Under the pieces are notes generated by a model. It was not told the DNA's origin. It saw only the letters and a program-made list of their open reading frames with translations, and did no database searches. A stretch of 64,000 nucleotides of DNA, taken from NCBI GenBank assembly GCA_017614995.1, contig JAGAAX010000045.1, positions 1-64,000 of the forward strand, in the 5' to 3' direction. This DNA is from Spirochaetaceae bacterium (GTDB lineage Bacteria; Spirochaetota; Spirochaetia; Treponematales; Treponemataceae). Shown piece by piece: positions 4,228 to 27,462 of the stretch (its first letter is position 1; each line of letters starts with the position of its first letter). Made by a program: the position numbers and the translations under genes.

Positions 4228-4421
4228 GGCGTTTCGCCTTGAGTTTTATCTATGGTTTTGCTTAATCTAGCGAAACGCCCAGTTTTCGCAAAGCGCAAAC
4301 TGGTAACAGGTGTACAACGTTTCGTTTGGGTTGATTCATACAGGCTGTCTGTTTTTGCTTTGCGAAAACAGACGCTTTTCGCTGAATAATCTTTATTTGT
4401 AAATAAAGCTGTTGCGAAAAG
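4228..4421. repeat. Full composite hairpin element B-A-A-B (about 194 bp)
   Basis: Stem B1 pairs 4228-4237 with 4270-4279 (GGCGTTTCGC / GCGAAACGCC). Stem A1 covers 4279-4303, stem A2 pairs 4347-4358 with 4362-4373, and stem B2 pairs 4375-4382 with 4414-4421. A further B copy follows at 4424-4466. The central gap carries GGTGTACA, shared with the copies at 10403 and 25546. Apart from this element and the weak glyS promoter, bases 4078-4470 hold no gene. Confidence 0.7.
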
Positions 4422-4470
4422 AGTTTCGCCGATTGAACTTTGTTCGTAGATTAAGCTGTTGCGAAAAGAA

Positions 4471-17349: not shown

Positions 17350-17448
17350 AAGAGCCTGCTCTCGGCGGATTTTCGTTTCGCAAAACGGCTTCACCCCTTC
17401 GGGGTTGCAGAGTGTTTTGCTCACAAAAATCCGCCTACGCAGGCTCTT
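17350..17448. repeat. 99-bp multi-stem cruciform
   Basis: Four concentric stems pair in order: AAGAGCCTGC (17350-17359) with GCAGGCTCTT (17439-17448), GGCGGATTTT with AAAATCCGCC, GCAAAAC with GTTTTGC, and CCCC with GGGG around a TTC loop. Small unpaired bulges lie between them. It sits between the YcxB-like promoter and the 41-bp array. Confidence 0.75.
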
Positions 17449-17499
17449 GTAGATGCACATTAATATAGTTTGATTTTCTAGCTGGAAGGTGGAGTGAAC

Positions 17500-17764
17500 A
17501 ATCGTAATGATTACGATTTGAGAAAATGAGCAAAGTGGGCAATCGTAATGATTACGATTCAAGAAAATGGCGAAAGTGAACAATCGTTATAATTACGATT
17601 TGAAAAAATGACGAAAGTGAACAATCGTAATAATTACGATTTGAGAAAATGACGAAAGTGAGCAAACGTAATGATTACGTTTTGAGAAAATGACCAAAGT
17701 GGGCGAACGTCATGATGACGTTTCATGAAAATCATCAAATTGAACAAACGTCATGATGACGTTG
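17500..17764. repeat. Array 1: seven 19-bp palindromes at an exact 41-bp pitch
   Basis: Palindromes start at 17500, 17541, 17582, 17623, 17664, 17705 and 17746. The first is AATCGTAATGATTACGATT (9-bp arms, 1-nt centre). Unit 5 changes T to A in the left arm and A to T in the right; units 6-7 also change A to C with T to G, so symmetry is kept. The 22-bp spacers are alike (GAAAATGACGAAAGTGA core) and end TGGGC, TGAAC or TGAGC. The cores of units 1, 2 and 4 are perfect TCGTAAT-N-ATTACGA sequences. Confidence 0.9.
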
Positions 17765-17791
17765 TACAAAGCTTGAAAGTGATTTTTTTCA

Positions 17792-23724: not shown

Positions 23725-25545
23725 ATGAAACTATTACAGTCATTTCAGGTTAAATTCCTTGCGCTTATAAGTTCTTTAATTATTGTAGTTGTAATTTGTC
23801 TTTCTTTTTACGCAATCAAAAAGATGACAAGAACCTCATCTGCGGTTTATCAGTCGCAGGCTACGCAGGTAGTAAGAGCCGCGCAGGGCGTTATTGACGG
23901 CGATATATTTCAACGGTACGCCAAATCTCTTGACCCGAACGACTTTGATTATATTGAAACATGCCGCAAGCTGCTTAAGATAAGATACGAGCAGCACTGT
24001 ACATATCTTTATACGATGGTTCTTAAAGACGACAAGACCGGCGTTTTTATTGCAGACGGAAGCGACGAGCCAGACGGAGACCAATTTTCACCGTTAGGTT
24101 CAGAAGAAGACATTTCTGATTATGGCGAAGATCTGCTTACTTGCTATAAGACTGCCCAAGCTATAACCGGCGACCTTGTATATCAGCCGGCTTGGGGCTG
24201 GACTGTTTCAGCTTATGCGCCAATCAAAAACAGTGCCGGAGAGCTTGTCGGAATTATCGGCTGTGACTATAACGGCAGTTCTATAGCAAAAGAGCTGCGG
24301 AATACTAGAAACGCGCTGATTCTTTTCGGCATTTTGGTAACAATTATAGCTATTATTCTTACGTTCTTCTTTACAATGCCTTTCTTTAAGCGGATTAAAG
24401 GCGTTTCGTCTTCTCTTGAACAGATTTCTGGCGGTGCAGGTGATTTAACTCAGGCTCTCCCTGTAAAGAAAGACGATGAAGTCGGCGCGCTTGCCCGCAA
24501 CTTCAATAAAGTTATTGCAAGTCTCTGTCAGATGATTCAGTCTATAAAAGACTCTACATTCAAGCTTGACATGACGAGCGAGAACCTGCTTGTTCAGATT
24601 GAGGGCGCAAAAGAAGCCATGCTTGTTGCCGGTTCTGAAATCATGGACATTACGACAAAGACACAGGCTCAGACTTCGTGCATGAACGACGTTGTTGTGG
24701 GCATTTCAAAGACCGAAGAAGAAATCGCCGAGCTTGACAAGCGTCTGAACAGCGTTTCTGTTTCAATTGAGAATTCTTCTAACGCCATGAAAGAAATGAC
24801 TGTGAATGTCAGCAATTTTAATAACGGAATGAACGAAATCGCCACATCTTGTACCGCGCTTGTTAATAATTCTGAAGAAGGCCGCGCGCTTCAGCAGGAA
24901 GTAGCCGACAAGGTTGCGCTTGTTGTTGAGCAGGCAAGAAACCTTGCAGACGCTAACACCGCAATCGCCAATATTTCGTCACAGACCAACCTTCTTGCGA
25001 TGAACGCTTCAATTGAGGCAGCTCATGCCGGTAACGCCGGTAAAGGTTTTGCCGTAGTTGCAGGCGAAATCCGAAAGCTTGCAGAAAGTTCTGCAAAGCA
25101 GTCTGAATCGATTAACAACCTGCTTAAAGACATTACTGATGCAATCAACGGAATTGTCCACTCATCTGATGCTTCGCGCAAATCATTTGAGGGAATCGGA
25201 AAGCAGATTCAGGGCATTGACCAGATGATTAAGGATTTGCAGCTCGGCATGAACGAGCAGGACAGCGCAATCCGCGGTGTTGCCGAGACAACCAGAATCA
25301 TCAATGAAACTGCACAGGCTATCAATGTTTCTTCTTCTAAGATGAAGCAGCAGAGTGCTGACGCTTTCGGCAAGATTGACCTTCTCAAGACCCAGACTAA
25401 CGAAATCGGCTCAAAGGTTGACAATATTGTAATGAAGACTATGGAAGTTCAGTCGCTTATCACCAACGTTGCCGACGCTTCCGAGTCAAACAAGCAGACC
25501 GCCACCGACGTATCTGAGCTTATAAACAAGTTCAAAACGATGTAG
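23725..25545 (+). CDS. Methyl-accepting chemotaxis protein
   Basis: A 606-residue transducer that signals to CheA/CheW. Transmembrane helix 1 is at about residues 8-30. A periplasmic sensing domain (about 31-192) follows, with Cache-like features (YETC, then a [25 protein letters not shown] strand run). Helix 2 lies at about 193-217, then a HAMP domain ([21 protein letters not shown]). The signalling coiled coil has its tip at [19 protein letters not shown]. The start codon lies six bases after a -10 box, implying a leaderless mRNA. The stop codon abuts a hairpin element. Confidence 0.93.
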
Positions 25546-25683: not shown

Positions 25684-25747
25684 CTTTGATATAGGCGAAA
25701 AGCGCCGCTTTTGACTTCGCAAAACCGGCAGTGCTGCGTTCTAAGCT

Positions 25748-26011
25748 AAATTTCAAATGAAATTTGTTTTCTTTTCGTATTTTGGGCAAAATATCAAATG
25801 ATAATTGCTTCCTTTTTGCATTTTGAACGAAATATCAAATGAAATTTGCTTCCTTTTCACGTTTTGAGCGAAATATCAAATGATATTTGTCTCCTTTTCT
25901 CATTTTGGGCAAAATATCATTTGATAATTGAAAGAAGTTTTTATATCCAACGAAATATCATTTGATAATTGACTGAAACTTTTATATCCAATTAAATATC
26001 AAATGATATTT
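25748..26011. repeat. Array 2: seven 18-bp palindromes at an exact 41-bp pitch
   Basis: Palindrome left edges are 25748, 25789, 25830, 25871, 25912, 25953 and 25994. Arms are AAATATCA / TGATATTT or variants, with a 2-nt AA or TT centre; unit 1 is AAATTTCAAATGAAATTT, changed symmetrically in both arms. Units 1, 4 and 7 are perfect, while 2, 3, 5 and 6 have imperfect right arms. The spacers of units 1-4 are T-rich and end TGGGC, TGAAC or TGAGC, as in array 1. The array ends 119 bp before the aspartate kinase gene. Apart from the listed repeats, 25546-26130 holds no gene. Confidence 0.9.
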
Positions 26012-26130
26012 ACTCCGCAAGCGTTAGCCGTTTGTTGTACTCAAAAAAAATAAGTCTTGTCCGTTTTGATGTTTTTCGGTAGACTGTCATATAAATTGCC
26101 ATTCCGGCTTAATGAAAAACGAGGATTTGT

Positions 26131-27462
26131 ATGATTGTCATGAAATTCGGCGGTTCTTCCGTTGCCAATGCAGAACGGATTCGCCATGTTGCTTCTATTA
26201 TCAAAACTTATGCGGATAAAAGACCGGCTGTTGTGCTCTCTGCAATGGGCGACACAACCGATTACCTGCTTGAAGCAGCCGATCTTGCATTGACCGGCAA
26301 AGTCGATATTTCAAATGTAGAAAAACTCCACAGAGACACAGCAAAAGATTTGGGCGTTGCAATCGACAGCGTAAACGAGCTGCTCGACGAGCTGAAATTT
26401 CTGCTTACAGGCATTTCAATGCTCAAAGAACTTACAAAACGTACAAGAGACTATCTTGTTTCGTTCGGCGAGCGTCTTTCTGTGCGGATGATGGCAGCAT
26501 ATTTAAACGCGAACGGTGTTCCTGCAAAATTTTATGACGCATGGGACGTTGGCTTTGTTTCAGACTCAAATTTTATGTCAGCAGAACTGCTTGACGAAGT
26601 TTGGAAGACAATTCCGGCTCACCTTTCAGATTACGCAAAGGGGAAAGACAAAAATATTCCGATTATTACCGGTTTTATAGCAAAAGACAAAAACGGCTAT
26701 ATCACAACACTGGGCCGCGGCGGCAGTGACTTAAGTGCAACAATGATTGGTGCAGCCATGAACGCCGATGAGGTTCAGACTTGGAAAGACGTTGAGGGCA
26801 TTCTTACAGCAGACCCGCGTACCGTTAAAAACGCAAGAACTGTAGCAGAAGTAACTTACGATGAAGCAGCCGAGCTTGCATATTTTGGCGCACAGGTTCT
26901 GCACCCGCGCTCAATGAATCCATGCCGCGTAAACGGCACGCCGGTTCGCGTAAAGAACTCTTACAATATAGACTTTCCGGGTTCGGTAATTGTCGCAAAA
27001 CATTCAGGCGAAAGACCGCCGGTAACAGCAATTACATCAAAGAAGAACAACATCGTCATCGACCTTGTTTCCACAAGAATGATTGGCTTACCGGGCTTTT
27101 TAGCTCATGTTTTCAATCAGTTCTTGAAATGGGAAATCAGCATTGACGTTATCGCCACATCAGAAGTTTCAGTTTCTTTGACGATAAACACAGACAAACC
27201 GCTTGACGGCTTGAAAGCAGACCTTGAGCGCTACGCTTCTGTTGATATTAAGCGCGGAAAATCAATTGTTACGATTATCTGCGATGTAGCGCGTTCTTCG
27301 GAGATTCTTCAGTCTGCATTCAAGGTGCTTTCTGAAGAAAAGGTAAACGTGCAGATGATAAGCCAGGGCGCTTCTAAAGTTAATATAAGCTTTATCGTTG
27401 ATGATGCAGAGGCAAACACTGTTGTCAAAGCCTTGCACAAAGCATATTTCGGGGAAAACTAA
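26131..27462 (+). CDS. lysC: Aspartate kinase
   Basis: Phosphorylates aspartate, the first step toward lysine, threonine, methionine and diaminopimelate. The 443-residue monofunctional enzyme starts with the family signature VMKFGGSSVANAERI and has FGERLSVRMMAAYL, TLGRGGSDLSATMIG and the C-terminal ACT regulatory pair (ISIDVIATSEVSVSLTI; VNVQMISQGASKVNISF). The ribosome-binding site CGAGGA is acceptable. It is followed 12 bp later by dapB, making a diaminopimelate-oriented unit. Array 2 lies upstream; a weak promoter (TTGATG, 18 nt, TATAAA) may lie near 26070-26099. Confidence 0.95.
   Translation: MIVMKFGGSSVANAERIRHVASIIKTYADKRPAVVLSAMGDTTDYLLEAADLALTGKVDISNVEKLHRDTAKDLGVAIDSVNELLDELKFLLTGISMLKELTKRTRDYLVSFGERLSVRMMAAYLNANGVPAKFYDAWDVGFVSDSNFMSAELLDEVWKTIPAHLSDYAKGKDKNIPIITGFIAKDKNGYITTLGRGGSDLSATMIGAAMNADEVQTWKDVEGILTADPRTVKNARTVAEVTYDEAAELAYFGAQVLHPRSMNPCRVNGTPVRVKNSYNIDFPGSVIVAKHSGERPPVTAITSKKNNIVIDLVSTRMIGLPGFLAHVFNQFLKWEISIDVIATSEVSVSLTINTDKPLDGLKADLERYASVDIKRGKSIVTIICDVARSSEILQSAFKVLSEEKVNVQMISQGASKVNISFIVDDAEANTVVKALHKAYFGEN

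Follow-up and report, generated by a model that had tools for sequence, protein, structure and literature searches.

The 64,000-nucleotide stretch of DNA analyzed here (the window) carries, between a gene for a methyl-accepting chemotaxis protein (MCP) and the aspartokinase gene lysC, a row of seven palindromes set at exactly 41 bp. What is such an array, and does it belong to the gene beside which it lies?

Two arrays and their relatives in one genome

The array occupies 25748–26011 on the forward strand and is composed of seven dyads of the form AAATWTCA-WW-TGAWATTT, located at 25748–25765, 25789–25806, 25830–25847, 25871–25888, 25912–25929, 25953–25970 and 25994–26011, with centers at 25756.5 + 41n, just as the preliminary description had placed them. 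Four spacers of one type (A-type, CTTCCTTTTCGCATTTTGAAC) fill the zone from 25766 to 25911, with dyads 2–4 between them, followed at 25930–25993 by two of another type (B-type, GACTGAAACTTTTATATCCAA) with dyad 6 between them, all on the forward strand. We call this array (window array 2) and its relatives family A. The second array in the window (window array 1), on the reverse strand at 17499–17765, likewise has seven dyads at a 41-bp pitch with the core ATCGTAAT/ACGTCAT and defines family B. When pitches of 20 to 80 bp were scanned across the 64-kb window without regard to sequence, chains of at least four dyads occurred at 41 bp only, and the scan at this pitch returned exactly two arrays, both of which had been named beforehand. 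Local shuffles (20 shuffles × 11 pitches) gave no dyad chains, and Tandem Repeats Finder (TRF) independently reported a period of 41 at both arrays. The two arrays resemble each other best in reverse complement, with the common spacer form TTGCTnnCTTTnnnCATTTT, so the TGRRC spacer ending that they had been said to share is probably coincidental. Beside array 1, at 17352–17450, lies a long inverted repeat (AAGAGCCTGC...GCAGGCTCTTG), a relative of which is found at C32 near another family B remnant.

The two arms of a dyad tend to change together. Positions 6 and 12 of family B read A..T in 41 units, C..G in 26 and are mixed in 2 (Fisher p ~1e-16), and symmetric arm changes in family A gave p ~3e-5. 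Symmetric arm changes, first noticed in a single dyad, are statistically real and far commoner than independent change of the arms would give. Their intermediates are mainly mismatches of A-A or T-T and not wobble pairs, and both orientations of the dyad center occur, a combination unlike that of a hairpin RNA under selection. Symmetric arm changes and flips can also arise without selection, by template switching in palindromes.

Relatives of both arrays were sought in the genome from which the window comes (G000) using patterns, two covariance models and sampled stretches. Family A was found at C22 (the window), C25, C29, C40, C48, C56 and C60, and family B at C10, C21, C22, C34 (twice) and C48; C32 and C52 hold short remnants of family B. 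Another 400 kb of G000, sampled away from the known arrays, contained no more arrays. All are intergenic, in tandem, convergent and divergent gene arrangements alike. The idea that each array has a core, and hence a specificity, of its own needs revision: the core goes with the family, that of the window array recurring at six other loci of G000. Nor is a copy number of seven constant, since family A arrays hold ~4 to 7 dyads and those of family B ~3 to 11, seven being common.

Family A behaves as a block of fixed order, in which four A-type spacers come first and one or two of the B-type follow, dyads being interspersed. The A-then-B order of the window array is also present in the copies at C40, C56 and C60, and the flanks of family A copies are unrelated (15–38% identity). 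The window array matches the copy at C40 in core, spacer order and its seven dyads, and has the same orientation as that copy, which lies upstream of a gene for a DUF6261 protein. The array at C56 has orthologues in G006 (C218) and G007 (C9), in which the majority of dyads are perfect and some centers are flipped. The array at 25748–26011 is probably a dispersed, gene-less copy of this block element.

The lysC site with and without the array

The neighbors of the array, the MCP gene upstream (23725–25545, forward strand) and lysC downstream (26131–27462, forward strand), are bystanders. In G007, a close relative whose LysC is 98% identical, the MCP-lysC junction is present without the array. 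The left flank of the insertion site (25722–25747, forward strand, AAACCGGCAGTGC) is common to the array-free site of G007, apart from its last 13 bases, which differ, and the right flank (26012–26130, forward strand), running from ACTCCGCAA up to lysC, is kept in G007 and partly in G001. The junction thus reads GGCAGTGCATGTAT directly followed by ACTCCGCAA in G007, versus GGCAGTGCTGCGTTCTAAGCT, the array and then ACTCCGCAA in the window. On the right the array junction is exact to the base; on the left the window and G007 differ over ~13 bases, with no target-site duplication visible. The array is also absent from the MCP-lysC junction of G001 (L257), where several hundred bp of other DNA stand instead, so the place may be an insertion hot spot. 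Since neither G007 nor G001 carries the array at this junction, it is a block that was gained, or else cleanly lost in both, and not a conserved control element of lysC. The tie to lysC-dapB that the preliminary description had drawn does not survive this comparison, as the closest relative keeps this MCP-lysC junction but has no array there. A lysine riboswitch or lysC attenuator was rejected on the strength of the same array-free relatives together with a search of the window, lysC leader included, against Rfam, which returned no matches at gathering scores. Another dispersed imperfect palindrome, GGCGAAAAGCGCCGCTTTTGACTTCGCAAAACCGGCAG, lies at ~25694–25733; it is also found near the arrays at C25 and C60, and G007 retains it at its own lysC site, where the array is absent.

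DUF6261 genes and the 41/42-bp period

Arrays with differing cores have a common downstream gene, which encodes DUF6261 (PF19775), an uncharacterized protein. The linked copy of family A lies ~115 bp upstream of the DUF6261 gene at G000:C40, and the linked, parent-like copy of family B directly upstream of a second DUF6261 gene at G000:C10. Among relatives, the arrays have the cores AACCTTAT-N-ATAAGGTT (G007), AAACGTAC-TNA-GTACGTTT (G161), TTCCGCAAAATGCGGAA (G005) and CGGAAT-N-ATTCCG (G201). A dispersed family paired with a resident DUF6261 array was also found in G001, G005, G007, G161 and G162, and in another phylum G583 likewise pairs a dispersed array, found by blind sampling, with a resident one. 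No DUF6261 gene was found in G006, which has family A arrays and an assembly ~80% complete, and no DUF6261 gene matching the family A arrays of G006 and G007 was found in assemblies that are 80–84% complete. At C52 (L105, 4951–5224) a family B remnant precedes the promoter leader known from the DUF6261 gene at C10, the DUF6261 gene itself being absent, and lies downstream of a paralogue of a DNA-methylase-like gene that the C10 locus also has; it is the relic of a duplicated locus.

The association was quantified in the 47 DUF6261 genes for which 300 bp or more of upstream sequence was available, using a self-match of 68/123 at a lag of 41 or 42 as the threshold; a sample of 395 genomes from a second phylum, Bacteroidota, had supplied 21 further DUF6261 matches in 11 genomes. 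An array with a 41/42-bp period was present upstream of 37 of the 47 genes (24/26 from the Treponema family and 13/21 from Bacteroidota), compared to none of the 47 downstream regions and 1 of 640 background blocks drawn from 400 kb each of G000 and G583, the single block fitting one dispersed array that TRF reported there. The corresponding Fisher p-values, 8e-51 against background and 5e-17 against downstream DNA, overstate the case because relatives among the genes of one genome are not independent observations; the effect nonetheless spans unrelated unit sequences. Of 45 lags compared, 41 or 42 gave the best match in 43/47 upstream regions versus 45/640 background blocks. Palindromy was clear in fewer cases, with 9 of 40 consensus units beating shuffles at 5%: the period is the general feature, and dyads are frequent. 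Near 41, the ordinary tandem repeats of the sampled stretches showed no excess. The 41-bp spacing is accordingly not a coincidence confined to the window, and the proposal of a distinct element type, constant in geometry and variable in core, holds, there being at least six core families at 41/42 bp, in two phyla, attached to DUF6261 genes.

Several further repeats were seen along the way. G162, a genome of 2.4 Mb, has ten DUF6261 matches (L166, L173, L179, L183, L186, L188 and L190–L193), most with long arrays of up to ~27 units and differing cores. The window also holds a 47-bp direct repeat (TTTCGCCGAATAAACTTTATTCGTAAATAAAGCTGTTGCGAAAAGAG) at 4377–4469; repeats of period 47 occur near the DUF6261 genes at G000:C51 and G007:C12 as well, the one at G000:C51 being clearly related to that of the window. 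Matches to a generic three-dyad pattern in Bacteroidetes and Ca. Parabeggiatoa contigs belong to other repeats, and the genomes concerned yielded no DUF6261. Ca. Parabeggiatoa (a metagenome-assembled genome) has tandem arrays of its own, with the dyad ATTCGTTATWATAACGGAT at a ~40-bp pitch (L123, 2880–3290, and L124, 1260–1620).

Geometry and sequence part company as the proteins diverge. Unit sequences are alike, in the same strand orientation, only where the DUF6261 proteins share ~60% identity or more; at lower identity the similarity of units is at chance (~0.41), while the 41/42-bp period persists down to ~20% protein identity. On a maximum-likelihood DUF6261 tree, whose long branches leave the deepest joins unsure, periods 41 and 42 cluster, with 6 and 5 changes versus 14.7 and 11.4 when shuffled, and none of 500 shuffles gave a count as low. 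A kept period with drifting sequence is expected if the protein reads spacing, and equally if array and gene are inherited together. A length of 41–42 bp corresponds to about four helical turns of DNA, and all sites of an array would therefore sit on one face.

The position of the arrays bears on how they act. Their ends lie 46–319 bp upstream of the DUF6261 start codon, and at G000:C10, G000:C40 and G001:C4 a TTTACA-17-TATAAT/TATTAT site stands between array and start codon. Since this promoter-like site follows the array, and no terminator was found between array and gene at C10 and C40, the array is placed upstream of the likely promoter, an arrangement that favors action as DNA. At most other DUF6261 loci, promoter-like sites were no better than in shuffles.

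The protein itself offers few clues. No known DNA-binding or recombinase domain was found in DUF6261; Pfam returned nothing but DUF6261 above cut-off, PADLOC-DB no match, and sequence comparison with the PDB chance-level matches only. A single-sequence fold was all-helical and poorly predicted (pLDDT 52). DUF6261 was not found in plasmids, phages or viral contigs, and a profile built from 30 of its members held no stretch with enough conservation to scan viral sequences. The literature searched, most subscription journals lying outside it, yielded no description of DUF6261 arrays; PF19775 was not found named there, and DUF6261 was named only in an unrelated context.

A candidate protein-DNA partnership

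Taken together, the evidence points to an undescribed protein-DNA partnership. In our proposal, every DUF6261 protein would recognize the array that belongs to it, with a dimer or larger unit on each repeat; neighboring units would make contact over a distance of four helical turns, along a single DNA face, and so build an assembly along the array. It is because of this proposed contact that spacing would be held by selection, while the sequence being read could drift together with the protein. The array upstream of its own DUF6261 gene would be an autoregulatory site, and the gene-less copies elsewhere would have spread in trans as whole blocks. Taken as a whole, this reading, in which DUF6261 binds a cognate array at one unit per four turns and the arrays that lack a gene have been spread in trans, is probably correct. 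Its parts differ in strength: binding of the array by DUF6261 is rather likely, regulation of its own gene through the array has a little less than an even chance, and participation of DUF6261 in the spreading of arrays seems unlikely, if conceivable. We suggest, tentatively and with somewhat more doubt than conviction, that DUF6261 and its arrays form a novel type of genetic element, found in two or more phyla, in which a protein reads DNA by spacing, specificity diversifies with the core, and several independent pairs per genome each spread gene-less arrays in trans. For an uncharacterized protein family the association offers a first way into function, and it is an unusual case in which geometry, not sequence, is the DNA feature conserved across phyla. 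If the proposed binding is true, a class of intergenic repeats found in Bacteroidota and in spirochaetes of the Treponema family would have its explanation, and the many natural pairs with differing cores would form a set from which to learn how specificity changes at a fixed oligomer spacing.

Could the array instead act as RNA? It would then be transcribed and cut into ~41-nt units bound by DUF6261, as in a type III toxin-antitoxin system, with the dispersed arrays serving as decoys or orphan antitoxins. Tandem repeats upstream of a gene, a unit length kept while sequence diverges, and repeats that track the protein tree are all features of type III systems (PMC5086642). In those systems, however, a single promoter precedes the repeats and a terminator separates them from the toxin gene, whereas at C10 and C40 a promoter-like site comes after the array and no terminator was found. 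The absence of a toxin or defense-family match for DUF6261 in Pfam and PADLOC-DB, the route of the arm changes through A-A and T-T mismatches instead of wobble pairs, the occurrence of the dyad center in both orientations, and the presence of gene-less arrays in all gene arrangements also speak against an RNA, which we regard as improbable. We give the same low standing to the view that the arrays do no more than form the control region in front of DUF6261 genes, as a phased operator or curved DNA, and that the dispersed ones are immobile leftovers of lost loci. The distance of 46–319 bp to the start codon and the C10-type leader that persists at C52 without a DUF6261 gene would suit such a control region, but the other gene-less copies have no leader or gene remnant alongside, their flanks are unrelated, and the lysC site is known both with and without an array.

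Two further explanations are much harder to sustain. If a Y1 (RAYT) transposase had spread REP-like palindromes, the DUF6261 link being secondary, one would understand why the palindromes are intergenic and dispersed, lie in arrays and often stand 3' of genes; yet Y1_Tnp (PF01797) was not found in the array-bearing genomes G000, G006, G007, G161 and G162, and a constant 41/42-bp pitch and a link to DUF6261 are foreign to REP, so this account is largely refuted and very unlikely. PF01797 was present in G001, G005, G201, G583 and G622, and control genomes gave the expected signal. Least probable, if by little, is that the arrays are a functionless by-product of replication slippage and palindrome correction. 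The dyad centers flipped between orthologous arrays (C56 versus G006:C218 and G007:C9) fit this, template switching can make symmetric arm changes, and the process may explain part of the arm symmetry. It is refuted for the period, which is one and the same in unrelated units, in two phyla and upstream of one gene family, and shows no excess near 41 among the ordinary tandem repeats sampled.

The proposed partnership can be set beside several known systems. REP and BIME elements are families of intergenic palindromes spread across one chromosome, with clustered repeats and a linked copy beside a single-copy gene, and REP palindromes carry a GTAG or CGTC tag at the foot (PMC3733652). DUF6261 arrays are like these elements and their RAYT partners in being dispersed, clustered intergenic palindromes with a linked copy beside a gene. 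They differ in that their units are direct, whereas REP units alternate, and stand at a fixed 41/42-bp pitch with a core that varies by pair; the partner here is DUF6261, and no unpaired GTAG or CGTC tag was seen beside family A dyads.

Type III toxin-antitoxin systems (ToxIN, CptIN and TenpIN) likewise have tandem repeats upstream of a protein gene, of kept unit length and divergent sequence that tracks the protein tree (PMC5086642). In contrast to them, DUF6261 loci show no terminator (C10 and C40) and have a promoter-like site after the array at several loci. They also have many gene-less copies, up to ~27 units, and units of 41–42 bp versus 34–36 bp in ToxIN examples, and DUF6261 is predicted to be all-helical with no match to ToxN, CptN or TenpN in Pfam or PADLOC-DB. 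MITEs offer another likeness: they too are short blocks whose copies have defined ends and sit at intergenic places unrelated to one another, and the lysC site is found with and without the element in G000 and G007, respectively. Unlike MITEs, the DUF6261-linked element contains an internal multi-dyad array at constant pitch, and no transposase of known type was identified as its driver. At the lysC site, where the left junction differs over ~13 bases, no target-site duplication was visible.

In phased operator, partition-site and iteron arrays, the repeats lie in phase next to the gene for their own binding protein. Above cut-off, DUF6261 had no match among known families of partition or replication proteins, and no plasmid or phage relative of it was found. 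The arrays linked to it differ from all three kinds in being chromosomal and present in many copies.
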